IMG/VR virus record: IMGVR_UViG_3300003323_000724
Location: 39,940 to 103,939 of that record
Length of the DNA: 64,000 nt
Origin: a virus
Reading direction: 5' to 3' (one strand)
Part shown: positions 11,276 through 35,763 of the stretch, one piece after another
Layout of the letters: every line of letters begins with the position of its first letter
How positions within the stretch are numbered: position 1 is the first letter of the stretch
The notes under the pieces: model-generated
What the model saw: only the letters and a program-made list of their open reading frames with translations
Database searches by the model: none
Told to the model about the DNA's origin: nothing
Translations under genes and position numbers: made by a program

Positions 11276-11277
11276 CG

Positions 11278-16292: not shown

Positions 16293-17915
16293 ATGTCCGC
16301 CAACACATCCGATCTTGCCAAAGCACTGGCCCGGGTCTACGGCTCACGGGCCGTAGACCGCCTCGTTTCCACGCCCGTCGCCAGTTCGGACGACATGGCG
16401 AAGTACCACGACGATCCGGTGGGGTTCATCCGCGATGCGTTTGGAATAGACCTGACAATGCCGCAGTTGAACGCGGCATTGGCAATGCCCGGACGAATTA
16501 AAATCAATTCAGGGCACGGGTTAGGTAAAACTCTCCTGTGCGCCGCTCTTGCCATTTGGTGGTACGCGACCCGGAATCCCGGCGTGGTCATCATTACCGC
16601 ACCCACCAGCCACCACATCACTACGGTTCTGTTTGCTGAAATTAGACTCCTGCTCGCCAAGTGTCGTATTAAACTGCCCGGGACCCTGTCGCCCAAGGCA
16701 CCCCTCTTGTACGACTCACCGGAGCACTGGATCGAAGGATTTACGAGTTCATCGGGGGAAGGTTTCCAAGGTCGTCACCGCGCGAGCATGTTTTTCATCT
16801 TTGACGAGTGCGAAGACGTAGACGCGGTATATTGGCAAACTACCGAAACGATGTACAAGGACGGAGAAGACCATGCTTGGCTTACCGTTGGTAATCCATT
16901 AACAACGTCTTCGCAAAGCTACCTTGAAGACTTGGCCGAACGGGAGGACGGAACGCCGAAATGGAAGCAGTACGTATTGTCCTCGATGGATCACCCCAAC
17001 ATCATCGCTCAACTCAATGGTGAACCACCGCCGATACCCAACGCGGTTACGCTTCACCAAGTTAACCAGTGGGTCAAGGACTGGACCGATCCGGTTCAAT
17101 TTGGCGACATCAAGCCATTGGACTTCGAGTGGCCCGTAGGATCACAGAAGTGGCGCAGACCATCCCCGATCTTTAAGGGCCGCGTTCTCGGCATTCGACC
17201 GACGGAAGGGGTTGATACGGTTTGGGGCGCCGTTGTGTGGCAAATGGCCACGACACGAACTGCTAACCCCTCCGCTTGTTGGTGGGGCGAATACGGTATT
17301 ACAATTGGTGTGGACGTTGCTATGTTCGGGGACGATTCAACGGCCATTCACCTTCGCAGTGGTCCGATGAGTTTGCTGCACGAGGAACACAACGGCTGGA
17401 CACCTCAGCAAACGGCCGGTCGTCTGAAGGACTTGTGCGTTGAGTACGCTGACGTTTACAACTCGTGGGCGGTGATCCCCACTCGTCCGCGACTGGAACC
17501 GTCTGACGTTAGCGTAGTTATCGAAGTGGATGGGTACGGGTATTCGGTACTGTCACACTGTGACGGGTTTGGTAACTGGTCCGGGTTTAAGGCCGGGGAA
17601 GCATCGACCGCTTTGGACCATAAGGGCCAGCCCCGGTACACGAAAAGACGGAGCGAGATGTGGTTCACCGGTAAGGAAAAGGCTATGGGGGGCCAAATGG
17701 ACCTGTCGTACTTACCCCAAGACGTGTTGCAGAAACTTCGACTGGAACTGATGTCGTCCATGTATTGGGCGACATCATCGGGGGCAATTCAGGTCGAAGA
17801 GAAAGTGGACATCAAGAAGCGGCTGAAAAAGTCCCCAGACGGGGCCGACGCACTGCTAGTTTGCTACGCGGACGTAACTTCGGATCTTCCAATGGCGATA
17901 ATCAGGGGGGAGTAG
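16293..17915 (+). CDS. Terminase large subunit
   Basis: ATP-driven DNA packaging motor and headful/site nuclease. Walker A GHGLGKT (74-80), Walker B FFIFDE (167-172) and coupling 'VGNPLTTSS' (199-207) form the ATPase. The nuclease half shows Asp341 (GVDVAMFGDDST), Asp413 (VVIEVDGYG) and a C-terminal DGADALL aspartate. Length 540 is normal. It starts 2 bases after the giant gene's stop without an evident Shine-Dalgarno, so translation is probably coupled. Its 3' end overlaps a reverse-strand gene by 14 bases. Confidence 0.92.
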   Translation: MSANTSDLAKALARVYGSRAVDRLVSTPVASSDDMAKYHDDPVGFIRDAFGIDLTMPQLNAALAMPGRIKINSGHGLGKTLLCAALAIWWYATRNPGVVIITAPTSHHITTVLFAEIRLLLAKCRIKLPGTLSPKAPLLYDSPEHWIEGFTSSSGEGFQGRHRASMFFIFDECEDVDAVYWQTTETMYKDGEDHAWLTVGNPLTTSSQSYLEDLAEREDGTPKWKQYVLSSMDHPNIIAQLNGEPPPIPNAVTLHQVNQWVKDWTDPVQFGDIKPLDFEWPVGSQKWRRPSPIFKGRVLGIRPTEGVDTVWGAVVWQMATTRTANPSACWWGEYGITIGVDVAMFGDDSTAIHLRSGPMSLLHEEHNGWTPQQTAGRLKDLCVEYADVYNSWAVIPTRPRLEPSDVSVVIEVDGYGYSVLSHCDGFGNWSGFKAGEASTALDHKGQPRYTKRRSEMWFTGKEKAMGGQMDLSYLPQDVLQKLRLELMSSMYWATSSGAIQVEEKVDIKKRLKKSPDGADALLVCYADVTSDLPMAIIRGE

Positions 17916-18281: not shown

Positions 18282-18315
18282 TTTTTACTCCTCCCGTGGT
18301 TTCGGTTGACACCCA

Positions 18316-18343: not shown

Positions 18344-18350
18344 ATGAAGT

Positions 18351-18367
18351 GGGAGGAATTACCTCCC
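18351..18367 (-). terminator. Hairpin containing a stop codon, upstream of the promoter
   Basis: GGGAGG (18351-18356) and CCTCCC (18362-18367) form a stem with a 5-base loop that includes the TAA stop of the 18359-18682 gene. Together with the adjacent promoter it repeats almost exactly at 63577-63611, suggesting a terminator-promoter unit. Confidence 0.5.
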
Positions 18368-20162: not shown

Positions 20163-20163
20163 C

Positions 20164-20349
20164 TCACTTCCCTCCGTTAAGGATTCGGTCCACTAGTTCG
20201 AGCACGTCAAAGGGACCGGCCGCTTCCAGTTCCCGGACGATCCCGACGATTTGGAGCCGCTCGGCCGTCGTAGCGTGCTTCCGAACGTCCTCGATCAGCC
20301 GGTCCGTCTCGGTGCGGATCTGGGCGACGATTTCAGGTGACGCGAACAT
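20164..20349 (-). CDS. Hypothetical helical protein, first gene of reverse operon
   Basis: 61 residues starting MFASPEIVAQIRTETDRL; two amphipathic helices. ATG 20349 follows GGAGAC and lies ~30 bases after the -10 of the divergent promoter pair, so longer upstream reading is excluded by the promoter. Confidence 0.6.
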   Translation of the reverse strand: MFASPEIVAQIRTETDRLIEDVRKHATTAERLQIVGIVRELEAAGPFDVLELVDRILNGGK

Positions 20350-20377
20350 TCGTTGTCTCCAGTTTCGGACGCACACA

Positions 20378-20405
20378 ACTATGCACCACGATCGGGGAGA
20401 GTCAA
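20378..20405 (-). promoter_or_regulatory. Cargo-type promoter, reverse (divergent pair)
   Basis: Minus strand TTGACT (20400-20405), 16-base spacer ending GGTG, CATAGT (20378-20383). Transcribes the 20349-18359 operon. Its -35 is 15 bases from the -35 of the plus-strand partner. Confidence 0.78.
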
Positions 20406-20420
20406 ATTCGATTTCCCGAT

Positions 20421-20448
20421 TTGACTTCTCGGAACCGCGTGGCATATT
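20421..20448 (+). promoter_or_regulatory. Cargo-type promoter, forward (divergent pair)
   Basis: TTGACT (20421-20426), 16-base spacer ending GTGG, CATATT (20443-20448). Transcribes the accessory operon from 20476. Back-to-back with the reverse promoter, so one regulator between them could control both. Confidence 0.78.
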
Positions 20449-20475
20449 TGAGAACCACTAACGGGAGGACTGTGA

Positions 20476-20679
20476 ATGGGAAATTGCGTGCTGACCGGAA
20501 TGTACAAAGACGAACAGCCGGAACAGGTAACGTGGTGCGGCCGGAACGCGGGCAAACAAGAGTGGTTGTTCCAGTCTGCTTCACATGTTGCACTGAACGC
20601 TCGGAATCGCGGCAGCGTTTCTCCGTGTCGTAAGTGTATTGAGTCAATTATCAAAGCACTCCGAAAGGAGTTGAAATGA
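20476..20679 (+). CDS. Small Cys-containing hypothetical protein
   Basis: 67 residues with Cys at both ends ('NCVLTG', 'TWCGRNAGK', 'SPCRKCIESI'), possibly a zinc site; basic C-terminus. ATG follows GGGAGG with 9-base spacing and is the first gene after the forward promoter. Function unknown. Confidence 0.6.
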   Translation: MGNCVLTGMYKDEQPEQVTWCGRNAGKQEWLFQSASHVALNARNRGSVSPCRKCIESIIKALRKELK

Positions 20680-20915
20680 CGCAAGCCGACCGAGCAATGT
20701 ACGACGCCGGCAACGTATTTTGCGAAACGCGCAAAGCACTGGTGGATTTGGCAACCAAGAAGGGCATCAAGGACCGAGTGGTTTTTATGGTTGGCCGTGT
20801 CGCGTGGTACATCGACCCACCGAAGTCCGCCCGGAACTACGAGCACGACAACGGATTAGACGGATGGGTAATCAGCTTCGGTTCTCGGCCGGAAGAGATC
20901 GAGGTGATCGAATGA
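20676..20915 (+). CDS. Hypothetical protein, 79 residues
   Basis: No family recognised. Predicted helix then beta strands (DRVVFMVGRVAWYIDPP, GWVISFGSRP). Start and stop overlap neighbours (ATGA), after AAAGGAG. Confidence 0.55.
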   Translation: MTQADRAMYDAGNVFCETRKALVDLATKKGIKDRVVFMVGRVAWYIDPPKSARNYEHDNGLDGWVISFGSRPEEIEVIE

Positions 20916-21517
20916 GTGTGCTCAAAGGATTAATGCGGAACATCTGCGAAAACCCGTTCGATGACAACGCTCGGCTCGTACTGGCCGATTACTTCGATGA
21001 GAACGGAAAGCAATGGCACGCGGATCTGATTCGGTTGCAACTGCGAAAACCTAGTTTCCAAGAGGTTTACGATTTTGCAAAGGGACTGGGGACGAATCCA
21101 GAACCGAACCGAGAGTTCGGGGCATTTTACTTTGCCGAACTGGGGTGGATGTCTTCTCCCCTGCACCACTCGCACATTGTCAGCCGGGGTTTAATTGGGG
21201 GCATTCACACCGATACCAACACATTCCTTCGGTCCCCCGAGTTGGTTTTCACTAAGAACCCGATAGTTCACGTAGTGTTCCAAGACGTTTGGCCGTACAT
21301 GGGTAGCGGTTCCCCCCAACTGCGAAGGACGACCAAACCAAAACCAATCGGCAGTCAAACTTCTTCGGTTCCTGCTGTGATTTATGATCGACTGCCGAAA
21401 GGACGTAACAGGTTCCGAACGCGACAAGACGTGACTCGGCTCCTTAGTCGGACCGCTGTGGATTACGGGCGAGAACGAGCGGGGCTGCCAAAACTGAACT
21501 GGGAGGACGAACGGTGA
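20912..21517 (+). CDS. TIGR02996 repeat-companion protein
   Basis: 201 residues. N-terminus 'NICENPFDDNARLVLADYF', 'ENGKQWHADLIRLQL' is the repeat-companion domain. Downstream 'VSRGLIGGIH' and 'FTKNPIVHVVFQDVWP' match the family's RGF and 'HP(V/I)..V' elements; leucine-rich repeats are absent. ATG 20912 overlaps the upstream stop; the longer in-frame reading is a shadow of the previous gene. Adjacent to a second, different TIGR02996 gene. Confidence 0.75.
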   Translation: MSVLKGLMRNICENPFDDNARLVLADYFDENGKQWHADLIRLQLRKPSFQEVYDFAKGLGTNPEPNREFGAFYFAELGWMSSPLHHSHIVSRGLIGGIHTDTNTFLRSPELVFTKNPIVHVVFQDVWPYMGSGSPQLRRTTKPKPIGSQTSSVPAVIYDRLPKGRNRFRTRQDVTRLLSRTAVDYGRERAGLPKLNWEDER

Positions 21518-22077
21518 GCGACGGGGACGCACTTTTGAAGGCGATACTTGCGAACCGGGACGATGACACACCGAGACTGGTGTACGCGGACTGGTTAACT
21601 GAGAACGGACAAGAGGCGAGAGCGGAATTCATTCGGGTGCAGGTGGAATTGATGCGTTGGTTGAAAGAGAACTCAGAAAGCCCCAATCGTGACCCAGACA
21701 TTTATGGAGCGAGGGAAGGAATTTCTCGCATGAAGCAATTGTGGAACCTTCGAGCTTACCCACCCGCACCTAAAGGATTCATTGCTTGTTTGGCCACAGA
21801 TTATTTTGGATACCTTCCTTCGCACCGAGTGGCAGTTTACCGAAGAGGGTTTCCCCATCAGATTTACTGCCCCACTGAAGATTGGTTGGAGTGTGCTGAC
21901 GTGGTGTTTGGTCAATATCCAATTCAAAAAGTAAATCTAACTACTCACATCCCACTGGGCAACCTATTCGATCTGTGCCGAAAGGCAGGATTGGGGGAAT
22001 ACCCCGGGAACCGGATTTCGTTCCATGAAGAGATCCTTGGCGGTATCTGGAAAGGGATCAAATTCACACTCCCTTGA
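21514..22077 (+). CDS. TIGR02996 repeat-companion protein
   Basis: 187 residues. 'ALLKAILANRDDDTPRLVYA', 'DWLTENGQEARAEFIRVQ' is close to the published family consensus and the best match in this window. Later 'YRRGFPHQIYCPTEDW' and 'FGQYPIQKVNLT' complete the non-LRR form. Start GTG 21514, after GGGAGG, overlapping the previous stop. Followed by a 206-base gap. Confidence 0.82.
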   Translation: MSDGDALLKAILANRDDDTPRLVYADWLTENGQEARAEFIRVQVELMRWLKENSESPNRDPDIYGAREGISRMKQLWNLRAYPPAPKGFIACLATDYFGYLPSHRVAVYRRGFPHQIYCPTEDWLECADVVFGQYPIQKVNLTTHIPLGNLFDLCRKAGLGEYPGNRISFHEEILGGIWKGIKFTLP

Positions 22078-22171
22078 GAATAGCCCTAATTTCGCTCAAG
22101 ATCAATTTTGGCCACTCGGACGTGACGTATCCCTGTTGACGTGTCGATCGATCAACCTGGAGCATCCTGTG

Positions 22172-22248
22172 CTAAATAAAAAGGGTCCGGATCGCCTACC
22201 AAGGTAATCCGAACCCCTACTGCAATGAAGGCCCAACAACGAGTTGGG
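22172..22248 (+). promoter_or_regulatory. Structured leader before the DUF262 gene
   Basis: The 206-base gap 22078-22283 carries CTAAAT (22172-22177, possible -10), then a 10-base-pair stem with one mismatch (22183-22192 with 22207-22216), and a second hairpin CCCAAC/GTTGGG (22232-22248). The gene start has its own exposed GAGAGG site. Upstream of 22172 I see only a stray TTGACG. Confidence 0.4.
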
Positions 22249-22283
22249 TGAGCTGCAACGGAATGGTAACAGAGAGGTGAAGG

Positions 22284-22820
22284 ATGGGAAAGTTAACTCG
22301 GTTCCAAGACGTGGACCGGTTCACGCGAGACGGGAGTTGGGAATGTGACTACACCCCGGACCGTCTAATTAAGCAAATCGATGATTGGGTGGGAGAAGAG
22401 AAACTAAATATGGACCCGGACTTCCAACGGGGACACGTTTGGACCGCGAAACAACAAACGGCCTACATCGAGTTCTACCTTCGCGGCGGGAAAACCGCTC
22501 GGGTGATCTACTTCAACAACCCAACCTGGAACCGAGACTGTGACGACTATCGAGATTTCGTAATCGTTGATGGTCTCCAACGGGTGACCGCGTTTCGGAC
22601 GTTCATCGAGAATCGAATCAAGGTGTTCGGGAGCTATTACCGAGAGTACACGGACAGTTTCCGAATGGGACTGAACACGGTGCGGCTGAACGTGAACGAT
22701 CTGAAGACCCGGGCCGAGGTGCTTCAGTGGTACTTGGATTTCAACACCGGTGGCGTGGTCCACACGGACGCGGAGATCCAACGGGTTCGGAAACTGCTCG
22801 AAGCGGAGAAGGTCAAATGA
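22284..22820 (+). CDS. DUF262 (GmrSD/ParB-like) domain protein
   Basis: 178 residues. 'LNMDPDFQRGHVW' and 'FVIVDGLQRVTAF' are the two signature blocks of DUF262 (the second is normally DGQQRLT), seen in ParB-like NTPase folds and in the GmrS part of modification-dependent restriction systems. Here it stands alone, without the DUF1524 HNH nuclease half, so it is not a complete GmrSD. Start ATG follows GAGAGGTGAAGG. Could regulate or counter host defence; inference only. Confidence 0.75.
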   Translation: MGKLTRFQDVDRFTRDGSWECDYTPDRLIKQIDDWVGEEKLNMDPDFQRGHVWTAKQQTAYIEFYLRGGKTARVIYFNNPTWNRDCDDYRDFVIVDGLQRVTAFRTFIENRIKVFGSYYREYTDSFRMGLNTVRLNVNDLKTRAEVLQWYLDFNTGGVVHTDAEIQRVRKLLEAEKVK

Positions 22821-22996
22821 ACAAGACGGCAGATTGCTACCGGTGCGGGGAACCGTCCGAGAACCCGGGCGAATCTTGGATGGGCGGTAAGGACAGCATG
22901 GAACCGGTTGTGGTGTGCGGAATGTGTTTTCAGTTGTCTATGATCGATCCGGACGAGTTCTGGCGAGTGATTCGAGAAAAGGAGGACAAGGAATGA
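22817..22996 (+). CDS. Small zinc-ribbon-like protein
   Basis: 59 residues with CYRCGE near the N-terminus and CGMC 25 residues later, a typical zinc ribbon. ATG overlaps the DUF262 stop. No family name available. Confidence 0.6.
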   Translation: MNKTADCYRCGEPSENPGESWMGGKDSMEPVVVCGMCFQLSMIDPDEFWRVIREKEDKE

Positions 22997-23208
22997 CGGA
23001 TTTGAAGTGGACTAAAGATATGCCCCGGAAGCCGGGATTTTATTGGATGTCCAAATTCCCTCATGACGATCCGGAGATTGTGGAAATTGATGTTTACGAG
23101 GGGCGAGCGTTCCGCGTGTGGTTGCGAGGTAACTACTACCCTTTGGACGATGTTGGTTTGGAGTGGGTGTGGTGTGGCCCGTTAACCGTTCCGGAGGGGC
23201 TGAAGTGA
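22993..23208 (+). CDS. Hypothetical protein, 71 residues
   Basis: 'DMPRKPGFYWMSKFPHDDPE' resembles the opening of small phage proteins that begin with a PxxPGxYW element. Beta-rich, Trp-rich, ends WCGPLTVPEGLK. ATG 22993 overlaps the upstream stop. Confidence 0.6.
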   Translation: MTDLKWTKDMPRKPGFYWMSKFPHDDPEIVEIDVYEGRAFRVWLRGNYYPLDDVGLEWVWCGPLTVPEGLK

Positions 23209-23531
23209 CGGAGCAAGAAATGCGGCAACTGGACGCGGAGATCCACACCAAGGTGTTCGGGAAGTTGGCAGGACATACCTATCATTGGACGGACGATTTG
23301 GTTTTCGAGCCACCGGAGGATCTTCCTAGGTACTCAACGAATTTGGTCGATGCGTGGAAGGTTGTGGACAAACTGACGGATAACTACGGGTTTTGTTTGG
23401 ACTCTGGAATCCAACCGGACAAGTGGCAGGCGACCTTTACTCACTTTCCGCACATGTTGGACGAGACAGGAAACACGCCGGCGGAAGCGATCTGCCGGGC
23501 CGCACTGCTAGTTGTCGGGAATCGGGTTTGA
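23205..23531 (+). CDS. Phage ABA-sandwich domain protein
   Basis: 108 residues. 'PRYSTNLVDAWKVVDKL', 'WQATF' and 'AEAICRAALLVVG' are the conserved parts of the Phage_ABA_S (PF18066) family, widespread small phage proteins of unknown function. GTG 23205 follows GGAGG and overlaps the upstream stop. Confidence 0.75.
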   Translation: MTEQEMRQLDAEIHTKVFGKLAGHTYHWTDDLVFEPPEDLPRYSTNLVDAWKVVDKLTDNYGFCLDSGIQPDKWQATFTHFPHMLDETGNTPAEAICRAALLVVGNRV

Positions 23532-23554
23532 TTGGGTGATTCCGTACCGATTCT

Positions 23555-23582
23555 TTGCATTCCCGAATCCGTGAGGCATAGT
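23555..23582 (+). promoter_or_regulatory. Cargo-type promoter, forward
   Basis: TTGCAT (23555-23560), 16-base spacer ending GAGG, CATAGT (23577-23582). The -10 ends 5 bases before ATG 23588, so the transcript should start at or about the A of the start codon. Confidence 0.7.
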
Positions 23583-23587
23583 TGAGC

Positions 23588-23806
23588 ATGGAAACACTAG
23601 CTAACCGACTAGCTCTATGGACCGGCCTGTTTACATTTGCGTGTCTTGGGGTAATGGCTTGTGGGATGGAGTTGTTGGGTCGGCACTGGGAAGCTGGAAT
23701 GATGCTGGGAGCGAATGCAGTTTGTGTGATTCTGATGATGTGGTTTACAGTGGAACACCGACTCCAAAAGGGTTGGTGGCCGTGGCAGGATAAACCAGAG
23801 GATTGA
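23588..23806 (+). CDS. Small membrane protein, two helices, possibly leaderless
   Basis: 72 residues with hydrophobic segments at ~10-30 (LWTGLFTFACLGVMACGMEL) and ~36-54. There is no Shine-Dalgarno and the promoter -10 is 5 bases upstream, so the mRNA is probably leaderless. Role unknown; a membrane protein from its own strong promoter in a phage could be an exclusion factor (inference). Confidence 0.6.
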   Translation: METLANRLALWTGLFTFACLGVMACGMELLGRHWEAGMMLGANAVCVILMMWFTVEHRLQKGWWPWQDKPED

Positions 23807-23807
23807 G

Positions 23808-24227
23808 ATGAGCACCGAGTTGAAGCTAGGCCAACTGATTGAGGGCAACCCACAGCGGGACGCCATTCACATCGCCGTGATTCCGATGGTGGCGATTAGG
23901 ACGATGAAACCGGGTGAACACCTGAAGAACGGGTGCGTAGACCCATTCCTGAATGCTCCAGTGCAGCCCGGACAGCGGTTTTGGCTGTTTTTGTATCCGA
24001 ACACAGTTACCAGCCTGCGGCACGTCTGGGAACATGCCGCATTTCCCACGGAACCGGAACTGCCCGAGAAGCGGCGTTCCGAAGCGGACGTGTGGGCCGA
24101 ACAGACGGTGCTGATGGACCAACCGGGAACGTTTACCACAGTGGACTACGCGGACCTTCCGCCGATGACGGAAGAGATCAGGGACAGCATCGTTGAAGTG
24201 TGGGAACGGCAAGGGAGGACCAAGTGA
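23808..24227 (+). CDS. Hypothetical protein, 139 residues
   Basis: 'AIRTMKPGEHLKNGCVDPFL' followed by 'PGQRFWLFLYPNTVTSLRHV' suggests a small beta barrel, and the C-terminal half is helical and acidic. I have seen this shape in planctomycete phage-like proteins but cannot name a family. Ends by overlapping the next GTG. Confidence 0.55.
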   Translation: MSTELKLGQLIEGNPQRDAIHIAVIPMVAIRTMKPGEHLKNGCVDPFLNAPVQPGQRFWLFLYPNTVTSLRHVWEHAAFPTEPELPEKRRSEADVWAEQTVLMDQPGTFTTVDYADLPPMTEEIRDSIVEVWERQGRTK

Positions 24228-24733
24228 ACATCGAGAACTTGAAAATCGATCCCAAGTGGCGGACCCAGACCGTTGTGGACCTGTGCTTGGCCATGCGAGA
24301 AACGCAAGACTTCTCCGCGATGCCGATTCTGGCAGACGCACTTCAGGAAGCGGATTGCGGGGATGAAACGTTACTTCAATTCCTTCGCAATCCGACAGGG
24401 ACGTATGCGATTAAGGCCGGAGTCGTTGGGTTAGTAACGAGCCAAGACACGGAGGAAGCAGTTCTAGAACTCCATGACTTTGGTTCAAACGGTTATGACT
24501 GCCCTGATTATGAAATACTCGTCAATGCTGCTTCAGGGCATCACAAGGAAAACAAAATTACGGGGGATGAATACGGATGGATTCACAGCAAAAATGACGG
24601 CGAATACTTGTGCTTTGGGGGCGTCGACGCGCACGGGGATATTCCAGATCGGTTCTGGGATTTGGTGCAGAAGGCCACGGGAAAAGTAATTCATCGAAAC
24701 GATCGAGCTAAATACTTCTCCTGTTCCTGTTGA
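24224..24733 (+). CDS. MPILADALQ-motif protein
   Basis: 169 residues. 'DFSAMPILADALQEADCGDE' followed by LLQFLR is a module I recognise as common in planctomycete proteins; the same module is in the partial gene at the right end of this window. The rest is unrecognised. Start GTG 24224 follows GGGAGG and overlaps the upstream stop. Confidence 0.6.
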   Translation: MNIENLKIDPKWRTQTVVDLCLAMRETQDFSAMPILADALQEADCGDETLLQFLRNPTGTYAIKAGVVGLVTSQDTEEAVLELHDFGSNGYDCPDYEILVNAASGHHKENKITGDEYGWIHSKNDGEYLCFGGVDAHGDIPDRFWDLVQKATGKVIHRNDRAKYFSCSC

Positions 24734-24742
24734 GGATTCCTA

Positions 24743-25114
24743 ATGGCCCACCAATGGAACCCCGGGTACGATGTGATCGCTTCCCTGCCGCCCTGCGAAG
24801 CGGTGCCCGTTTACTTCCTGCAAGACTACCCGAACACGTTCCACGTCGAGGTGACTACGTTTCCTCAGAACCGACACTTCCAAGTTCGGTTCCCGCCCAA
24901 GGTGTGGGTGAAGACGAACAATTTCGACGCGGGCAAGGACTGGCACCAGAAGCACTACCGTATCACCTGCACTTACGTCAGTGATTTGATCTGGAAGGTG
25001 GGCGACTACAACGAGCACTACGTCGAGGTCCGTGGCACGTTCGCGCTGGAACCGATTGAGGACGAAGTGGACCAGCCGTTAATCGTGGAGGACAAATGCT
25101 TGCAACGAACCTGA
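24743..25114 (+). CDS. Hypothetical beta-rich protein, 123 residues
   Basis: Strands with alternating hydrophobics (TFHVEVTTFPQNRHFQVRF) and many aromatics; no family recognised. Overlaps the next gene by 19 bases. Confidence 0.55.
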   Translation: MAHQWNPGYDVIASLPPCEAVPVYFLQDYPNTFHVEVTTFPQNRHFQVRFPPKVWVKTNNFDAGKDWHQKHYRITCTYVSDLIWKVGDYNEHYVEVRGTFALEPIEDEVDQPLIVEDKCLQRT

Positions 25115-25401
25115 TCGGTGAACGAGTGGTTTTGAGTTTGTCCGGGGAACTAGTCGCTACTGGAATAATTAGGGCGTTTGCGTGGGTCGAATCGGGTGTG
25201 ACCGCTCGTTTGCTTTTGGAAGGTCCGGGACGAAAAGTAACTGCTTGGGTGTGGAGTTGTGTTGACGATTATTCGGAACTGCAAATTATTGGGACTGCCG
25301 AAGACTTGGCATCTACTGAATTGGCTCGCGCCGTTCTCGCCGGGGACAAAGTAGCCGCCCGAGCACTGGCCGATCGGGTCCAAGAACTGTGCCAGGAATG
25401 A
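25096..25401 (+). CDS. Hypothetical protein, 101 residues
   Basis: N-terminal half looks like a small beta barrel (GERVVLSLSGELVATGIIRA), C-terminal half is an Ala-rich helix. ATG 25096 lies inside the previous gene. No family recognised. Confidence 0.55.
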   Translation: MLATNLIGERVVLSLSGELVATGIIRAFAWVESGVTARLLLEGPGRKVTAWVWSCVDDYSELQIIGTAEDLASTELARAVLAGDKVAARALADRVQELCQE

Positions 25402-25424
25402 TTCTCCGGCCCAAGGAGATGGAA

Positions 25425-25664
25425 ATGAAGACCAGCAAGGAATGGGTCTTGGTATACCAACCCAAAGCGAAAGTAGAGTTACAGGAATTGAACGGGAATA
25501 CGCGGTTTCGGATCAAAGGGTTCAACAGAACCGGAGCACCCAAATGTTTGTCCGTCTGGTGCGAGTCGGAAGAGAACGCTTGGGCCTTGGCGGACCAAAT
25601 TCTGTCGGACCGGTATCGAGAACTGGAAGCGGTGAGCGAACCTACTGGTGGGAAGCAACTCTAA
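25425..25664 (+). CDS. Hypothetical protein, paralogue of the 25966 gene
   Basis: 79 residues. 'VWCESEENAWALADQIL' corresponds to 'KWCDSEDRAWKAATQSL' in the gene at 25966. ATG 25425 is chosen because AAGGAG lies 6 bases upstream; ATGs at 25398 and 25419 are in frame but worse placed. Confidence 0.55.
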   Translation: MKTSKEWVLVYQPKAKVELQELNGNTRFRIKGFNRTGAPKCLSVWCESEENAWALADQILSDRYRELEAVSEPTGGKQL

Positions 25665-25678
25665 CTGGAGGATCGAAG

Positions 25679-25966
25679 ATGTTCGGAAAGAAAAAGAAGA
25701 AGCCCGAGAAGAAGCCCGAGAAGAAGCCCGAGAAGAAGCCCGTTAAGGGAACGGGTGGGAGCAGTTCAAGCAAGTCAACCAGTTCGGACGGTCCCACGGA
25801 CACGTCGAATGCGTTCTTGTGGGGAACGATCTACGGATCGAGCAGTTCCAGTTCGGACCCAAGCTCATCATCTTCGAGCTATGGCAGTGGTAGTTCCGAT
25901 TCGTCCGGTTCCGGGGACTTTAGCAGCGACACGGGATCGGGTGGTAGTTGCGGTGGGGATTTCTGA
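25679..25966 (+). CDS. Serine-rich low-complexity protein
   Basis: 95 residues: a lysine-rich head with KKPE repeats, then a Ser/Gly tract, ending GGSCGGDF. Such tails occur in small uncharacterised bacterial and phage proteins. ATG follows GGAGG; the stop overlaps the next ATG (TGATG). Confidence 0.6.
   Translation: MFGKKKKKPEKKPEKKPEKKPVKGTGGSSSSKSTSSDGPTDTSNAFLWGTIYGSSSSSSDPSSSSSSYGSGSSDSSGSGDFSSDTGSGGSCGGDF
25697..25742 (+). repeat. 12-base tandem repeat (AAGAAGCCCGAG)
   Basis: Three perfect copies plus ten bases of a fourth, coding for KKPE. Copy number is likely variable among relatives because perfect in-frame repeats slip readily. Confidence 0.85.
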
Positions 25967-26181
25967 TGAGCAAGGAAACTGTACTAGCCAAGAAACCCAA
26001 GGCGATGGTAGAGCGGAAGATCCTGATCGGTGCCCCGTGTCAGTACCGAATCATCGATCCGACGGCGACGATGTTTGGCCAACGGCGGGTACTGTGTAAG
26101 TGGTGCGATTCAGAGGACCGAGCGTGGAAGGCGGCAACGCAATCCCTGTTCACCAAATCGCTGGGTAAGATGGACGAATAG
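25966..26181 (+). CDS. Hypothetical protein, paralogue of the 25425 gene
   Basis: 71 residues. Shares 'PKAxVE...' and 'WC(D/E)SE' plus the following helix with the 25425 product, although the middle differs. The two flank the Ser-rich gene, suggesting an ancient duplication with insertion. Stop is 4 bases before a 30-base palindrome. Confidence 0.55.
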   Translation: MSKETVLAKKPKAMVERKILIGAPCQYRIIDPTATMFGQRRVLCKWCDSEDRAWKAATQSLFTKSLGKMDE

Positions 26182-26185
26182 AGCA

Positions 26186-26222
26186 CACAGGTGTTCCCTT
26201 AAGGGAACACCTGTGGTACACT
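26186..26222 (+). promoter_or_regulatory. 30-base perfect palindrome and promoter
   Basis: 26186-26215 is a perfect palindrome (arms CACAGGTGTTCCCTT, no spacer), directly followed by TACACT (26217-26222) as a candidate -10. It occupies the -35 position, so it may be an operator for the HTH protein encoded 15 bases on, or a terminator hairpin for the upstream operon. Confidence 0.6.
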
Positions 26223-26230
26223 TCTGAGTA

Positions 26231-26407
26231 ATGCCCACGTTAACCACGGCCGAAGTCGCGAAGATTCTCCAAGTGACCCCTCGGTGGGTCCGGAAACTTC
26301 GTGACCGAATCGGCGGGTTTGAGATTAAGGGCGGTGTTTTGTTATTCGATCAGCGGGCCGTGGAGCGGTTCAAAGCTAGTCGAGAGAGGAAGGGAAAGAA
26401 TGCCTGA
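26231..26407 (+). CDS. Excisionase/MerR-type helix-turn-helix protein
   Basis: 58 residues. 'LTTAEVAKILQVTPRWVRKL' is a canonical HTH_17 (excisionase-family) DNA-binding domain, followed by a wing (GGVLLFDQRAVERF) and a basic tail. Its start is close to the palindrome and promoter, so autoregulation is likely. The stop overlaps the next ATG by 8 bases. May also act as a recombination directionality factor, but I find no integrase here. Confidence 0.8.
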   Translation: MPTLTTAEVAKILQVTPRWVRKLRDRIGGFEIKGGVLLFDQRAVERFKASRERKGKNA

Positions 26408-26597
26408 AACAATCGATCCTCGGGACGTTCTCGTGATTCAGGCCACGAAGGAGTTGTACGAGGTCATCCACACCTGGACAAAGCGACACCAGTTGACCGA
26501 AGCAGAGTTTACTTTCGTTGTGGCCGGGATGCTGGCCCGACAGACGCAGAAGATGTGTTTGCGTGAGCGAGGGTTGCTACAGGAGACTGAAGCGTGA
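26400..26597 (+). CDS. Hypothetical helical protein, 65 residues
   Basis: Amphipathic helices throughout (LVIQATKELYEVIHTWTKRH), ends acidic. ATG 26400 follows GAGAGAGGAAGGG and overlaps the HTH gene. No family recognised. Confidence 0.6.
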   Translation: MPETIDPRDVLVIQATKELYEVIHTWTKRHQLTEAEFTFVVAGMLARQTQKMCLRERGLLQETEA

Positions 26598-26914
26598 ACA
26601 AAAGTATGATAGACTCTAATTCTTGGGAATTCCCCTTGATTCAGTTTGAACGAGAAGTGGCCCAACTTGTAGGCGAAGAGATAGTAAAGTTGGTTGGGTA
26701 TAGTGGAGTGGTGGGGGGAGCGCTTGCTATCGAAGATCCTGCGGCGGAGATGCCGTTCTTCGTGAGGCTCTATCTCGACTGTGAACCGGAACTTGTGGCC
26801 GACCAACTCCCACATACGCTCACGGTGAATTTGCCCTCGAAGCAACTAAATCTTCCTGTTAGTGCCGAGTACACTGGCAAATTCCAGGGGCAGAGTTGGG
26901 AGGATTCTAAGTGA
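26594..26914 (+). CDS. Hypothetical protein, 106 residues
   Basis: Start GTG overlapping the previous stop. Mixed composition with a hydrophobic Gly/Val stretch (LVGYSGVVGGALAI) too short for a clear membrane helix. No family recognised. Confidence 0.5.
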   Translation: MNKSMIDSNSWEFPLIQFEREVAQLVGEEIVKLVGYSGVVGGALAIEDPAAEMPFFVRLYLDCEPELVADQLPHTLTVNLPSKQLNLPVSAEYTGKFQGQSWEDSK

Positions 26915-27261
26915 CCCTCAAGGAGCGAGCAGCGGAGCAGGCTACACGGGAAGCGGACGTGATGGCAGCTCTGTGTGAAATGCCCCAGTGCGGTCGTGCG
27001 TCGTGGCTCTGTCGGGTGATTAATTTCAAGGGTCCGAGTGGGTGGTGCCCAGTAGGTCCGCCTCGAATGGGAGAGCACAGGAATCTTCCGTCAGTTCCTA
27101 CAATGTCCCAAGCGAGAGTCAACGATGTGCTCCGGAAAATGTATAAGAAGGGCGCCATTCAACTGATCTACCCGAACACGCGGATGATGCGGTACGTGCT
27201 GCTAGAGGAGTGGAACGAAATGAAACGGAAGGGCCAATCGACGGAGGGGATGAAATTGTGA
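26911..27261 (+). CDS. Winged-helix-like hypothetical protein
   Basis: 116 residues. 'TMSQARVNDVLRKMYKKGAI' followed by 'RMMRYVLLEEW' resembles recognition helix and wing of a winged HTH. A Cys/Pro-rich insert (WCPVGPPRMG) is unusual. GTG start overlaps the upstream stop. DNA binding is an inference. Confidence 0.5.
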   Translation: MTLKERAAEQATREADVMAALCEMPQCGRASWLCRVINFKGPSGWCPVGPPRMGEHRNLPSVPTMSQARVNDVLRKMYKKGAIQLIYPNTRMMRYVLLEEWNEMKRKGQSTEGMKL

Positions 27262-27467
27262 CAGAGAAAAAGCCGAACCAAGTGACGACGGCGTACATTC
27301 TGGTGTCCATTCCGAATCTGGATGCGTGGTCGATAGATCACTTGGGAAAAGTTGTGGAGAGGCTCAAGAAGGAACAGCATAAACCGGAAGCCGAACGGTT
27401 CATTCCGATTTGGCTCGATCTTGTTCCAAAGAAACCCGAATGGCACCCGATTGAGGATGATCTGTGA
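27258..27467 (+). CDS. Hypothetical protein, 69 residues
   Basis: GTG 27258 overlaps the upstream stop; longer reading is a shadow of the neighbour. 'TTAYILVSIPNLDAWSIDHL' then a charged helix. No family recognised. Confidence 0.5.
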   Translation: MTEKKPNQVTTAYILVSIPNLDAWSIDHLGKVVERLKKEQHKPEAERFIPIWLDLVPKKPEWHPIEDDL

Positions 27468-27742
27468 CTGATAAAGGGTTTGAACCAACACACGACATCA
27501 ATCTTACGCTGACCATCAAGGATCGAGTTACGGGCGAAGTGCAGACTCGGGCGACGGAATTCGGAACCTACTGGTGGACGGAAGGTAACGGTTCGGATGA
27601 TTGTAACCGACGGGCATTGTTCTTTCCCGACCATTCAGACGAGCCGTGTCAGGCGAAGCGGTACATTGTGATTGGCGTCGAACCATTGCTCCAAGGCTAC
27701 TCGTTGGAAGACTTTAATCTGAACTACGAGGACGTGAAGTGA
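27464..27742 (+). CDS. Hypothetical protein, 92 residues
   Basis: Beta-rich (INLTLTIKDRVTGEVQTRA), acidic, no motif known. GTG start and 3' end both overlap neighbours; it directly precedes the large glycosyltransferase fusion. Confidence 0.5.
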   Translation: MTDKGFEPTHDINLTLTIKDRVTGEVQTRATEFGTYWWTEGNGSDDCNRRALFFPDHSDEPCQAKRYIVIGVEPLLQGYSLEDFNLNYEDVK

Positions 27743-29760
27743 TTCCGAGTTACTTGCTCGTATGCGATGAACTTCCCGAAAGGCGGGATGGGGCGATCGC
27801 CCACTTGTGGGAACGAGGACTAGAGCCAACGGTTTGGAAAGGATTCCACGGCCGTTCTTGGGGTCTCATGACCACGCGAGAATACGATAAGGGGCAGCGG
27901 ATCAGTCCGGGTCACGTTGGGCTGAATACGGGCAGTTGGGCAATGTGGCAGGCTGCAATGCTAGGGGTCGGGTGTGACGGGACTAAGCCTTGGGATGGGG
28001 ACGAAGAATTGATGTTTTTTGAGGACGATGTTTGCCTTCCTGTCGATTTTAAGAATCAACTGAACGCCCTCTTTTGGGAACTGGACCAATCCCTTCCGGA
28101 CTGGGATTTGGTGTTCTTGGGTCTCGCTGAGGTCCAGCCAAATGTTTGGGGAAAGGTCACAGATCGGTTGGGTGACGGAGCGTCGAGGTTGTGCGTTTTA
28201 GATTCGCCCTTTGGCACCCATGCCCTGCTTGTCCGCCGTCGCGCTCTGCCGGTCCTGCTCGAACACATGCGACACGCGGAACGGAACCTCGATCAACAGC
28301 TCTGGAAGTACGTACTCCAGCCGGGACTATTGAAGTGGTGCGCCGTGCTTCCCTCGATCGTTACCCAGCGAACGTTCGATTACGAAGGAACCGGAAAGCC
28401 GGAATGGGTTGCGTCCACGATCCACGCCGATGATCCGATGTACACGCCCACGCTCCCGCACCACCCACCGGCCGAGCACGTCAACACGCGAAGTCCGGAA
28501 GAAGTGACCAAAGCCATCAAGATGGTCGAACAGGACAAGAATGGAATCGACGTTCACCAGCGGACGCTAGAAATGACGGACCCGATTCCTTGCGCCTACA
28601 GAGGCGAAGGTGTTGATGAGATTGCTTTGTCAAACAAAGGATTTCCAGTTCCCCTCTGGGAATGTGCCCGGCTCGACAAACTGTGTTTCAACAAAAAGGG
28701 AATCGTTCTGGCCGATCCGAAGGAAGCCCTGCGATGTGAAACCTGTGAAGTGCGGGAGCAGCTTACTCCACCGGAGCAGCTAACACGGCTGCCGCTTCCG
28801 GAAGGGCACTTTAACTGCTCAGCCATCAAATGGGACAACCGGTTGATCCTCGCATCTCGTGACTCGTGGGGCCACTCTAAAGTGGCCCTGTGGGAAATGA
28901 CCAACACGGAAAAGGACTGGTCCGGAACTTGGACTGCGAAAGCGATTGGCAGCTTTGCTAGCGATCACTCGTTGATGCCACGACTGGAAGACCCGCGACT
29001 GTTCATCGCACCCAGTCCGGTCACGGGCCGACCGCACCTGTGTTCCGTGTTCTCGTGCCCCGATGGGTATCCGCCGGAGTTGGTTAAGGTTGGATATGTT
29101 CGCTTCAAGGAAGACCTGTCGGGGATCGAACATTCTGAAGTACTTGATTCACCCTACGATAGCAAGTATGAGAAGAACTGGTTACCATTGGTTAACCAAT
29201 ACGGAACAAGTTGGGTGTACGGGTCGAAGCCCAACCACGAAGTGATTCAGTTTGACAAGGACGGGAAGGTTAGTCAGAAGTGGATTACCCCCAATCCACT
29301 ACCGTGGAAGGGCGGTGCCCATCGTGGTGGGGCCGTGCCGGTGTTCGTGTCTCGAACTTACGCACAAGCTAACAAGATGCGCGATTGGGGCTGTGACGTT
29401 CACTACCACTTCCATCATGGGGTTCTTAAGAGGATTCAAGGGGCGGTTTACAGTACGGGATGCACAGTTTTTGAAGCACAACCACCGTACCGAGTTCTTG
29501 CCCAGACTAGGATTCCGCTTCAATGGGCCGACAACTCCGGAAACAATGACCGATGTGTGAAGCGATATGTTCTATTCATCGGTGGAGCAATACCTCATCA
29601 CGGACATTGGAATTTGTTTAGTGGGATCGATGACACATACTGCCGACACTCCAGAATTTCGTTTGCAGTTGTTAACACGGCACTGAACACGGAGCCGGAA
29701 GAAGATCGCGGTGTAGGTATTCGGGACACGCCGATTTCACTTGGATCGAGGGGACAATGA
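27739..29760 (+). CDS. GT25-like glycosyltransferase fused to GH130-like propeller
   Basis: 673 residues. The N-terminal ~220 residues resemble GT25/LPS-type transferases: 'GHVGLNTGSWAMWQAAML' then ELMFFEDDV (94-98 acidic motif, metal and nucleotide-sugar binding) and 'DLVFLGLAE'. A linker with CETC follows. From ~330 on, 'FNCSAIKWDNRLILASR', 'MPRLEDPRLFIAP' (~413-425), 'YEKNWLPL' and 'GGAHRGGAVPVF' match the five-bladed propeller of GH130 mannoside phosphorylases and hydrolases. A single polypeptide could remodel a surface or virion glycan. GTG start overlaps the previous gene, and a methyltransferase follows. Confidence 0.72.
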   Translation: MIPSYLLVCDELPERRDGAIAHLWERGLEPTVWKGFHGRSWGLMTTREYDKGQRISPGHVGLNTGSWAMWQAAMLGVGCDGTKPWDGDEELMFFEDDVCLPVDFKNQLNALFWELDQSLPDWDLVFLGLAEVQPNVWGKVTDRLGDGASRLCVLDSPFGTHALLVRRRALPVLLEHMRHAERNLDQQLWKYVLQPGLLKWCAVLPSIVTQRTFDYEGTGKPEWVASTIHADDPMYTPTLPHHPPAEHVNTRSPEEVTKAIKMVEQDKNGIDVHQRTLEMTDPIPCAYRGEGVDEIALSNKGFPVPLWECARLDKLCFNKKGIVLADPKEALRCETCEVREQLTPPEQLTRLPLPEGHFNCSAIKWDNRLILASRDSWGHSKVALWEMTNTEKDWSGTWTAKAIGSFASDHSLMPRLEDPRLFIAPSPVTGRPHLCSVFSCPDGYPPELVKVGYVRFKEDLSGIEHSEVLDSPYDSKYEKNWLPLVNQYGTSWVYGSKPNHEVIQFDKDGKVSQKWITPNPLPWKGGAHRGGAVPVFVSRTYAQANKMRDWGCDVHYHFHHGVLKRIQGAVYSTGCTVFEAQPPYRVLAQTRIPLQWADNSGNNDRCVKRYVLFIGGAIPHHGHWNLFSGIDDTYCRHSRISFAVVNTALNTEPEEDRGVGIRDTPISLGSRGQ

Positions 29761-30428
29761 ACGTCGAAAACGAATTGGATGTGCTGGGAAGGTATCAGGA
29801 TGAACCATTACACAAAATCGCCGAATCGATCACAGAAGAGGTCCGGATTTGGACACATTTGACAGATGCTTACATTCTTGGTGATTTGCTTCAGGAACAA
29901 GACAAGGAATTGGATTTCGTTTCAGGACGAAACTATACTTGGTGGTACATGATTTCGGATCACTTCGACCCCAGTTCCGTTGTTGAAATCGGGACGCGGT
30001 TTGGTTACGGGTTGAAAGCCGTTCATTCGGGGTTTACTTACGACCGCTTGATGCGGATTCACGTTTTCGATTCCGAGTGCAACCCCGGCGACAAGGAACC
30101 GCTGAAAATATTCGAGGACTACTTCCGCAACCGTCTGGGGATTACTGATCTGCGCATCAACCGTGTAGACACCCAAACGCTAACCACGCTTGGGGTCACC
30201 GAGCCGGTTGACATGGCGATCGTGGACGCGGACCACAGCGAAGCGGGCTGCTACCACGACTGCTGTCTCGCGTGGGAAGCTCTGAAACCGGGCGGCGTGC
30301 TTGTGGTAGACGATTGCAATCCGGGGGAGCCGCAGCGGGCCACGGAACGGTTCTGCCGCGAACGGAACCTGGAATGGGCGTTTCTTCCCTCACTGCGGGG
30401 GATTTACTTGGTGCGAAAGGAAGGATGA
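29757..30428 (+). CDS. Class I SAM-dependent methyltransferase
   Basis: 223 residues. Motif I 'VVEIGTRFGYG' (75-85), acidic 'VDMAIVDADHSEAGCYHD' (151-168) and 'LKPGGVLVVDDC' (176-187) identify a Methyltransf_24-like fold. ATG overlaps the GT-GH gene after GAGGGG, so the pair is coupled and the likely substrate is the same glycan. Confidence 0.85.
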   Translation: MNVENELDVLGRYQDEPLHKIAESITEEVRIWTHLTDAYILGDLLQEQDKELDFVSGRNYTWWYMISDHFDPSSVVEIGTRFGYGLKAVHSGFTYDRLMRIHVFDSECNPGDKEPLKIFEDYFRNRLGITDLRINRVDTQTLTTLGVTEPVDMAIVDADHSEAGCYHDCCLAWEALKPGGVLVVDDCNPGEPQRATERFCRERNLEWAFLPSLRGIYLVRKEG

Positions 30429-30429
30429 C

Positions 30430-30747
30430 ATGGCGGAATCAGACAAGAGGGACTATTCAGATTTTCTGGAATACTGCCATCGAGTCAGTGAAATCGTAAA
30501 AACTTGGCCGGCATGGAAACAAGAAGTATTAGGTGGAAAAGCAGTGCAACAAGCAACCCAAGAACAACCCAAGGTGATCGACGCAACGAAGCGAATCATC
30601 ATTTTCTACTACCCGGCCGAGGATGAAGGAGCCAAAGGACGAGCGGAAAAGAACGCTGCTCGAATCCAAGGTGCCGGAACTCTCGTGGTTTCCCGACCGA
30701 CAACATACACTGGTCCGATGGTTGAAGCGATTGACCCACCAAAGTGA
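30430..30747 (+). CDS. Small protein containing a portal-protein segment
   Basis: 105 residues. Residues 54-101 align without gaps to portal residues 312-359: 'IFYYP..D', 'RAExNAxR', 'VVxRPxxYxGPMVE'; I count 24 identities in 47 positions. The first ~50 residues (with KTWPAWKQEVLGG) are unrelated to the portal. ATG follows AAGGAAGGA. It may be a portal decoy or assembly regulator, a superinfection factor or a leftover duplication. Not explained by any family I know. Confidence 0.7.
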   Translation: MAESDKRDYSDFLEYCHRVSEIVKTWPAWKQEVLGGKAVQQATQEQPKVIDATKRIIIFYYPAEDEGAKGRAEKNAARIQGAGTLVVSRPTTYTGPMVEAIDPPK

Positions 30748-32772: not shown

Positions 32773-35763
32773 ATGCCAGCGTTTGAAATTCCAAATACGT
32801 TCTCCGATTTCAAAATCGGTAACGCTCCCGCCGGATTCGACCCTTCCAAGTTCCGGCTCCCAACTGGCGAGCCGATGCTGAACGATGATTCGCTCATCAT
32901 CCCGGCTAGTCGCGGGTTCACTTCCGTTTGGAATCAGGGTCAGAAGGTATACACCTATCGCTTCGATGAAGCTATGAGGGATTCGTACATCAATGCTCGT
33001 GCAATGCGACGGGACGGGTTCTTACGTGGACTATTTGAAGAACGTATTCTTCCAACGATCAATAGAGAATGGGTAATCGAGATTGACGATGACCGCGACC
33101 CACAGCAGCGGACCGTTCGGGACGCCCTCAAGAAGATCGTTCGGGAAATTCCCCAATTCACCCTTCTGAAACGCGCCCTACTCGACGGGGTGTGGTTCGG
33201 TCGCGCCGGTGTCGCCGGGTTCTTCAACCGGAACCCGGACGTGGAAAACCTGTGGTGCTACAGCTACTCCCCGTCCTGCAAGGATCACAAGTGGGATTCG
33301 GTCCACGGGGACAGCATTCAGTACACGTTCGACGGCATTCCGGCGATCATGATGGATTCCATCACGGCCGGATGGTACGCGGCTAACGGAGCTGTCTGGC
33401 AGGGGGAATGGCAGTCCAAGTTTGGTAACAGCACGACCGGATTCGGTGAGTACGGAGTTACTTCCGGTGGTGGTGATTTGCGGTACACGGACCGGGGCGG
33501 CACGGCTCTGGTTCTCCATCGCAAATACTGGCGGGACCGGTACGCGATTCACCAGCACATGCGCGAGAAGGCGGATTACCTCGAAGGGGAACTAGCGGGT
33601 AGCGTCCAGGGCTTGGGGCTTCGCGGCCTCGTCTACTGGCTCTACGTGCTCCGCACACAAGCCCTTGCGTGGATGCTCGCTTACATGCAGTCCGTCGGCA
33701 TGATGGACATGGTGATTTTCTACTACCCGACGGGGGATCACGCGGCCCGTGTTCGTGCGGAACAGAACGCCAACCGGATGATTGGCAAAGCAGCTTTCGT
33801 TGTGCCCCGGCCGGTAAATTACAACGGGCCAATGGTCGAACAGCTCCAGATGAACAGTGCGGGCTTCAAAGCCATGCACGAGTTCCTGAGTGATTACTTC
33901 GACCGACACATTGAACGCCTCTTTGTGGGCCAGTCCATGAGTTCCGGTGCCGACCACGGCACCGGACTTGGCGGCACCGGGCGCGCTCTTTTTGCAAAGG
34001 CCACTAAAGACGAGATTATTCAGTACGATACAACAAACCTTGATGAGACTATAACCCGCGACATTCTTACTCCGTTGAAGCAGTACAACTTTGCGTGGGC
34101 CAACTTTCCGGTTCGGTTCAAATCGATGCTTCCTGATCCGGACGCGCAAGAGAAGGTACAGAGCGGCAAGGTTCTGGTTTCTCTGGGGATTCCCGTCAAG
34201 TCCGTGGAAATGCTCCAAGCGGCCAAGTTTACGACTCCGGAAGACGGAGATGAGGTCATCATTGCTGCCGGTCCGGGGGGTCCGCCAATCCTTACGACGA
34301 TGGGGCCAAACGGCCCGCTCCCGCCGCAGCAGTCGCCAATGATGGCCTCCATGATGCCCCCAATCGGTCCGGGCGGTGGTCCAATGCTGCCCCCGGGTCC
34401 GATGGGACCGCCCGGAATTCCCCCCGGTTCGGCACCTCCACGGCCGCTATTGACTCAGCCACCGATCCAGAACGGCCCCCAAATCGCACCAGTTCGTCCA
34501 TATGTGGTTCCGCAGCACCAGATGGTGACTTTGCCAGCCGGATCACATTCGGCGATTGTTCGCCATCCTGTGCGATTTGCGGAGGGGGCATCGGGGGCAC
34601 CGCCGTCCGCTGGCCCCGTGATGGGAAGTCCGGCGGGAAGCAACACGTACATTCCGAGTGCGGGGACCAAACCATCCTACGAACGGCGACACACCCCCAA
34701 GGGTGGCATCACGTACCGGGACAAGCCTTACCGTTCGGGTCAATTCATGCCCGGTACGGTAATGTTTCAGCACACCCCGCCGCGACCGAAAGTGACGGCC
34801 GACTTTGGTTCCCGGACGCCCCCGAAACCACCGGTGGAGTACACGGAAGATCAACCCCAAGAACAACTCCCGTGGACCGGGCACCCGGACGCCGAAGCGG
34901 TGATGAGTTCACTGCCGAAAGCGGCCCACGAGCGGCTCAAAACGCGGCTCCTGAAGTTCACTCCGGTTCCGGACGTGGAAACGTCAACCAAGATGTGGTA
35001 CGACGGTGACCCAAACGCACCGCATCCGAGCAAACGAACCCCCGCGATTGCGTTCTACGATCCGGCTAACGGGGAATTGGTTGCGGCTCCGGGCGGTCCA
35101 AACGTAGACGCAAGAGGGGCAATTGCCCACGAGATGTTCCACGCTCTCGATCAGGACGAGAACCGGCAGTATTTCGATCTGTCCGGTGATCCGGAGTGGT
35201 TGGATGCGTGGCAGAAGGAAATTGCGGGCGGGCAGCTATCTAAGTACGCCACAACCGATGAAATTGAGGCGTTTTCCGAGATGGGACGGGCGTTGCATGG
35301 GGGTCAGCACGACCGGGGGGATATCGAAAAGCGATTCCCCCAATCGGTGGCGTTCCTACGCAAGCACGGGTTGGTGGATGAACCGAAACAACCAACCCAA
35401 GCCTCTCGGTACGCCGAAGAATACGACACTTCACATTTGCTGTTACCTTCTGCTGGCGGTTGGGTGGGCAAGGAAAAGTCTCGTGATTTGGGGGACGGAA
35501 TTATTCATTTTGTTGATCCATTCGGCAGCCACCGTTTTGTAGCTCATTCCGAAGGAGTTCCCGTGTCGGCAATTCAAGTGATGGGTACGGGAAAATCGGG
35601 AAGGGTTGTGGGAGCCTATACCCATCCGCAATACAGGCGGATGGGCCACGCTTCTAATTTAATCCACACCGCTCGTGGAATTTTTCCAGACTTGAGCTTT
35701 GACGATGATAGGTCGAGCGCGGGGGATGGGTTGGTGCAATCTTTAACGAGACAACCGAATTAA
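32773..35763 (+). CDS. Portal protein fused to metallopeptidase and GNAT-like domain
   Basis: 996 residues. Residues ~40-490 are a Mu gp29-type (DUF935) portal: 'INREWVIEIDDDRDPQQR', 'MMDMVIFYYP', 'LFVGQSMSSGADHGTGLGG', 'LFAKATKDEIIQYD'. A Pro/Gly-rich linker (~495-700) follows. Then ~700-860 has AIAHEMFHALD, a zincin HExxH (His786, Glu787, His790) with a later acidic 'EIEAFSEMGRALHGG' that could give the third zinc ligand. Residues ~880-996 contain 'VVGAYTHPQYRRMGHASNLI', the acetyl-CoA loop of GNAT acetyltransferases, short for a complete domain. Ordinary portals are ~450-550 residues, so half the protein is additional. Confidence 0.85.
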   Translation: MPAFEIPNTFSDFKIGNAPAGFDPSKFRLPTGEPMLNDDSLIIPASRGFTSVWNQGQKVYTYRFDEAMRDSYINARAMRRDGFLRGLFEERILPTINREWVIEIDDDRDPQQRTVRDALKKIVREIPQFTLLKRALLDGVWFGRAGVAGFFNRNPDVENLWCYSYSPSCKDHKWDSVHGDSIQYTFDGIPAIMMDSITAGWYAANGAVWQGEWQSKFGNSTTGFGEYGVTSGGGDLRYTDRGGTALVLHRKYWRDRYAIHQHMREKADYLEGELAGSVQGLGLRGLVYWLYVLRTQALAWMLAYMQSVGMMDMVIFYYPTGDHAARVRAEQNANRMIGKAAFVVPRPVNYNGPMVEQLQMNSAGFKAMHEFLSDYFDRHIERLFVGQSMSSGADHGTGLGGTGRALFAKATKDEIIQYDTTNLDETITRDILTPLKQYNFAWANFPVRFKSMLPDPDAQEKVQSGKVLVSLGIPVKSVEMLQAAKFTTPEDGDEVIIAAGPGGPPILTTMGPNGPLPPQQSPMMASMMPPIGPGGGPMLPPGPMGPPGIPPGSAPPRPLLTQPPIQNGPQIAPVRPYVVPQHQMVTLPAGSHSAIVRHPVRFAEGASGAPPSAGPVMGSPAGSNTYIPSAGTKPSYERRHTPKGGITYRDKPYRSGQFMPGTVMFQHTPPRPKVTADFGSRTPPKPPVEYTEDQPQEQLPWTGHPDAEAVMSSLPKAAHERLKTRLLKFTPVPDVETSTKMWYDGDPNAPHPSKRTPAIAFYDPANGELVAAPGGPNVDARGAIAHEMFHALDQDENRQYFDLSGDPEWLDAWQKEIAGGQLSKYATTDEIEAFSEMGRALHGGQHDRGDIEKRFPQSVAFLRKHGLVDEPKQPTQASRYAEEYDTSHLLLPSAGGWVGKEKSRDLGDGIIHFVDPFGSHRFVAHSEGVPVSAIQVMGTGKSGRVVGAYTHPQYRRMGHASNLIHTARGIFPDLSFDDDRSSAGDGLVQSLTRQPN

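Follow-up and report, generated by a model that had tools for sequence, protein, structure and literature searches.

In a dodecameric portal of published structure, the clip domain consists of three strands and one helix joining two stem helices (PMC12847820). The clip is the docking face for the terminase and the tail machinery (PMC12847820), and the adaptor contacts it as well (PMC11445458). The same face is central to bacterial defense and to phage counter-defense, as described for the sensing of YonE by SpbK and for Nip of phi3T (PMC11984713, PMC12847820). SpbK, an anti-phage TIR NADase, recognizes the portal clip with its N-terminal domain, and clustering on the assembled portal ring activates it; a mutation in the clip gives the phage partial escape (PMC12847820, PMC11984713). 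Nip binds SpbK and leaves the contact between SpbK and the portal in place, in a tripartite complex. In the literature searched, we found no earlier report of phage-encoded portal decoys.

Short ORFs homologous to part of a Mu-type portal are found in several PHROG families (phrog_25139, phrog_10231 and others). Of these, phrog_25139 covers both the clip and the stems (JBD30 187-285), which would be the case for broken portal genes. The small ORF described here is likewise short and portal-like, but it holds the clip only, fused to another segment. It lies in a stretch of 64,000 nucleotides (positions 39,940 to 103,939 of the 104-kb IMG/VR record IMGVR_UViG_3300003323_000724), and this whole stretch is what we call the window.

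The small ORF and its likeness to the portal

The features of the window that are needed here are listed with their coordinates and strand.

16293..17915, + strand: terminase large subunit, the expected clip partner (43-52% identical to those of two relatives; weak Terminase_6N match)
29757..30428, + strand: methyltransferase gene (Methyltransf_24), directly upstream of the small ORF, in the same accessory block within the terminase-portal interval
30420..30425, + strand: Shine-Dalgarno-like GAAGGA, just 5' of the ATG of the small ORF and within the last bases of the methyltransferase gene
30430..30747, + strand: small ORF of 105 aa, a predicted chimera of an N-terminal helical WPxWK segment, a linker and a stand-alone portal clip domain
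30442..30534, + strand: N-terminal segment of the small ORF, residues 5-35, with two predicted helices and WPxWK (PHROG matches and model)
30595..30732, + strand: putative clip-domain copy, residues 56-101 of the small ORF (alignment, profile and model, pLDDT ~80)
32773..35763, + strand: portal protein gene, Mu type, a 996-aa ORF (Portal_Mu, E 2.2e-34; phrog_113)
33709..33846, + strand: putative clip domain inside the portal, residues 313-358, corresponding to the copied piece (placed by alignment with the JBD30 portal and by the secondary structure of a low-confidence model)

The reading frame of the small ORF is open, and its ATG lies 1 base past the stop of the methyltransferase gene, near the structural genes and on the same strand. 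Pfam gives no match to it at E values up to 1, and the gathering score of Portal_Mu is not reached. As read from its sequence, the encoded protein joins a motif common in small phage proteins to a portal clip. Residues 5-33 match phrog_29728 (E 4.5e-6) and, more weakly, phrog_38465 (E 0.02); the WPxWK motif of this segment is common to small proteins of Pectobacterium and Xanthomonas phages, and the model predicts helices at residues 10-24 and 28-44. The likeness to the WPxWK proteins of these two families lies in the N-terminal segment, and unlike the small ORF they have no clip.

Residues 56-101 align without gaps to portal residues 313-358, with 24 of 46 residues identical and a score of 127 in a BLOSUM62 local alignment, whereas 2,000 shuffles gave a mean of 34 (SD 4.6) and a maximum of 58. 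The DNA of the clip copy and of the portal clip in the window is 64% identical. When all ORFs of at least 30 aa in the 104-kb record were compared with one another, the small ORF and the portal paired at E 7e-12, and this was the sole partial copy of a structural gene that was seen in the record. A profile built from three portals also recovers the small ORF (E 2e-7, model positions 291-336). Judged by these comparisons, the homology of the piece to the portal is secure and a chance match very unlikely.

The preliminary description of this DNA had claimed a stand-alone piece of the portal, and the alignment score and the E value bear this out, although the span must be narrowed from residues 54-101 and 312-359 (24 of 47 identical) to the 46 residues given above. 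It had also called the rest of the protein unrelated, which holds relative to the portal but not overall, in view of the PHROG and small phage protein matches of residues 5-33. The phage's own portal, named there as the source, is the closest portal known. However, the third-position GC of the small ORF is 44%, as against 55-77% in most genes of the window, and since this is unusual the gene may derive from another phage, with a sister phage as a possible alternative donor of the clip copy. The reading of the shared segment as a general domain of many unrelated proteins, which the description had put forward against its own claim, was ruled out: every profile search assigns the segment to portals, and the clip part matches no other domain family.

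Alignment and modelling, both proposed earlier as ways to find which region had been copied, point to the clip. The segment aligns to about residues 232-275 of the JBD30 portal, flanked by the stem (W211/F215) on one side and by the tunnel loop, which starts at 301, on the other (structure 8rka; the numbering used reproduces stem residues W211 and F215). In the model of the small protein, a strand at residues 56-62 is followed by a helix (66-78) and two strands (83-89 and 98-101) at a pLDDT of ~80, so the protein is predicted to have the three strands and one helix of a clip. Portal residues 284-379 are modelled, at low confidence, as a long helix, strand, helix, strand, strand and long helix; the portal core model was built from three sequences and has a pLDDT of 33, and only its secondary structure was taken. 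By alignment and predicted secondary structure, the copied piece is a complete clip domain, a strand-helix-strand-strand unit between two stem helices. Foldseek searches of PDB and BFVD with the model of the small protein returned nothing below E 0.001, the matches being mostly thioredoxin-like strand-helix look-alikes with a few portals at E 0.65-1, and the assignment of the clip fold therefore rests on the sequence alignment and the secondary structure.

The clip of Mu-type portals (Portal_Mu PF06074; Mu gp29, JBD30 gp32, PDB 8rka) is homologous to the 46-residue segment, but the small ORF has no wing, stem, crown or tunnel loop, only portal residues 313-358 being represented, and it would not be expected to make a portal ring of its own. 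A broken portal gene was considered as well and ruled out, as the ORF carries the clip only, an intact portal gene lies elsewhere, and the Mu-type fragments in PHROG include stems.

A second stand-alone clip and the origin of the copies

Neither the small protein nor the portal had a close relative in IMG/VR and GTDB genomes by single-sequence or two-row segment queries, and relatives surfaced only through capsid, portal-alignment and terminase searches. Two came from the capsid and portal searches: IMGVR_UViG_3300033067_001965 (G001), whose capsid and portal are 60% and 51% identical to those of the window phage, and IMGVR_UViG_3300044946_000175 (G002), whose portal is 52% identical. In both, the small gene is absent from the stretch ahead of the portal. 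The search for similar decoys that had been suggested at the outset did yield a second case of the same 46 residues, in G002, which brings the stand-alone clips to two (window phage and G002). It is a 95-aa ORF (L011:7323-7610) about 11-13 kb downstream of the G002 portal gene, and its residues 10-55 align without gaps to residues 313-358 of the G002 portal with 25 of 46 identical.

The ends of the two clip copies coincide, at positions 291-336 of the three-portal profile in the window and 290-337 in G002. The clip is C-terminal in the window ORF, while in G002 it is N-terminal and followed by a different helix-like sequence. Both copies retain the core that is conserved in portals, and both have lost two features common to all three portals, the I-G-K-A that follows the helix and the Q near the end.

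Each clip copy is closest to its own portal, cross-comparisons giving 17, 15 and 14 identities. Trees uniting the two small proteins were rejected with five taxa (delta lnL at least 21, AU p <0.01) and also when a distant portal was added as outgroup (delta lnL 24, AU p 0.018). A single origin of the two clip proteins is thus rejected by the topology tests at an AU p of about 0.02 or less. The two clip copies apparently reflect either separate capture or gene conversion with their own portals, two routes that 46 positions cannot separate.

The clip ORF of G002 belongs to a block that follows the major capsid gene, where it is flanked by two partial copies of capsid protein (G002 21.4-23.7 kb). 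One is a shortened copy of the major capsid protein (L011:6439-7287, 282 aa, 31% identical to the capsid protein of the same phage), and the other is a chimeric ORF within L011:8023-8673 that holds 85 residues of capsid protein at 42% identity. With clip and capsid copies side by side, several pieces of structural proteins are free-standing in G002. An HNH endonuclease precedes the block, and a further HNH gene lies on the opposite strand beyond the next gene.

Possible roles of a free clip

In a portal ring, twelve clip domains form the face that docks the terminase and later the adaptor. A free monomeric clip could occupy a clip-binding partner without clustering it and would in that way act as a competitive mimic. 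The partner would most likely be a host portal sensor, making the protein a counter-defense decoy, with the terminase or the adaptor as the next candidate. This is the reading that we favor, at a probability of roughly 40%: as a monomer, the product of the small ORF would mimic the clip and compete for a partner that binds it, which is most likely a portal sensor of the host. The monomeric state, the partner and the effect of the protein are what we infer here. Recurrent capture of the clip alone, resemblance to the own portal, accessory location and patchy presence together fit a decoy best, and an accessory position combined with absence from other relatives is the pattern expected of arms-race genes.

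The effect that we propose would, by analogy, resemble that of Nip. The means would differ, as Nip leaves the contact between SpbK and portal in place, whereas the small protein is proposed to be a copy of the trigger instead. Its link to SpbK itself is likewise one of analogy. Several points count against a decoy. The known sensing of the clip by SpbK is in Bacillus, whereas the likely host here is a planctomycete; the instances are two; Foldseek gave no significant match; and the dN/dS of ~0.40 of the window copy alone (given below) leaves room for constraint being weak. The PADLOC library of defense and counter-defense profiles had no match for the small protein of the window or that of G002.

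We would place a decoy first among the readings, then competition for the terminase or adaptor, recombination debris and finally an assembly factor. The preliminary description had instead suggested that the portal piece blocks or tunes portal ring assembly, including that of a rival phage. This fits less well, since in the absence of wing and stem the poisoning of ring assembly is less natural than competition for a clip-binding partner, but its notion of interference with a rival lives on in the second of these readings. Here the free clip would bind the terminase or adaptor of co-infecting relatives or satellites, block portal docking and thereby favor the phage that encodes it. That the clip is a docking platform for the terminase, the tail machinery and the adaptor (PMC12847820, PMC11445458) agrees with such interference, as does the resemblance of the copy to the portal of its own lineage, which a sibling competitor's portal would share. 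We nevertheless regard it as rather unlikely, because the phage's own packaging should suffer too and no immunity device was seen, and because the portal-invariant I-G-K-A and near-end Q that both copies lack are possibly needed for a faithful docking mimic.

The fusion could also be the functionless outcome of illegitimate recombination between a piece of portal and a small ORF. In favor of this, the genomes of phages are mosaic, the G002 case has HNH endonucleases close by, and the unusual third-position GC of the window ORF is as for a recent arrival. Such an origin is unlikely, however, as two lineages carry the same 46 residues, bounded by the same ends, and these make up a whole structural domain. 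The substitutions bear on this as well. The copy and portal of G002 differ by a pS of 0.77 and a pN of 0.30, so that synonymous change is saturated and non-synonymous change small, which indicates constraint on the G002 clip copy; the window pair has a dS of 0.97 and a dN of 0.39 (dN/dS ~0.40). In simulations of neutral decay to an equal nucleotide distance, 14.4 identical residues remained on average for G002 and 16.7 for the window, and the 25 and 24 identical residues observed exceed the neutral 99.9th percentiles of 21 and 23. As the portal side is itself constrained, these figures argue strongly for selection in G002 but are no more than suggestive for the copy in the window. In a small base-rate control, no partial portal or major-capsid copies were found in six cultured phages (Mu, HK97, P22, StM171, POA1180 and a 15-kb part of JBD30), and no partial portal copy in a 73-kb distant relative (G005). 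The strongest evidence that the clip piece is selected is the second, apparently separate case of the same piece, and that a relative apparently copied the same domain separately points to a mimic or decoy under selection, not to random debris.

A normal assembly helper or minor virion component, for example one that sits beside the portal clips or holds the terminase until the ring is ready, would agree with the best match being to the own portal and with the position of the gene, close to the structural genes and on their strand, but it is quite improbable given that the clip protein was not found in the structural blocks of G001 and G005 and that the two carrier phages have it in different places and with different fused parts.

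If the free clip is a decoy for a host sensor, a broader proposal would be that this phage group repeatedly copies single domains of its own structural proteins (the portal clip; the capsid pieces of G002) into small accessory genes for decoys of the host immune receptors that sense these proteins, with the clip copies as trigger-mimic decoys against portal-sensing immunity. We consider this doubtful in its full breadth. The portal clip is the docking site of the motor and, in the case of SpbK, the spot where bacterial immunity reads the phage, and a free phage-borne clip, apparently captured separately in two lineages, predicts that trigger-mimic decoys exist. To search for them, one would look in the accessory regions of other phages for structural domains copied as free-standing units whose ends match those of the domain exactly.

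Surrounding genes

A 1687-aa ORF just upstream of the terminase (11227-16290) matches the Gemmata domain TIGR02996 (rpt_mate_G_obs) four times, and further TIGR02996 proteins are encoded at 10183-11202 and 21514-22077. These proteins point to a Gemmata-like host. Between the terminase and the gene at 27739 lie ~10 kb of accessory genes (18000-27700), some of them on the minus strand, and the homologues of the terminase and of the 27739 gene are adjacent in G001. The terminase large subunit of G001 (G001:32583-35159, - strand, within L019) has an intein-like insertion of ~264 residues between the parts that match residues 281 and 282 of the window terminase. At 22284-22820, a 178-aa ORF matches two defense-library models in its N-terminal part, NsnA (E 1.7e-12) and PD-T4-2_A (E 9e-8).

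The C-terminal half of the window portal ORF contains an HExxH motif (AHEMFHALDQ) and has a weak match to GNAT acetyltransferases at residues 920-967; the portal ORF of G005 is 1654 aa long. Near the capsid block of G002, a TnpB-like protein (L011:11205-12299, - strand) was recognized by eye, with zinc-ribbon cysteines near its C-terminus. Finally, the ORFs at 24200-24733 (+ strand) and 63601-63999 (- strand) of the window are distant paralogues, 35% identical over 51 aa (E 1.5e-5).
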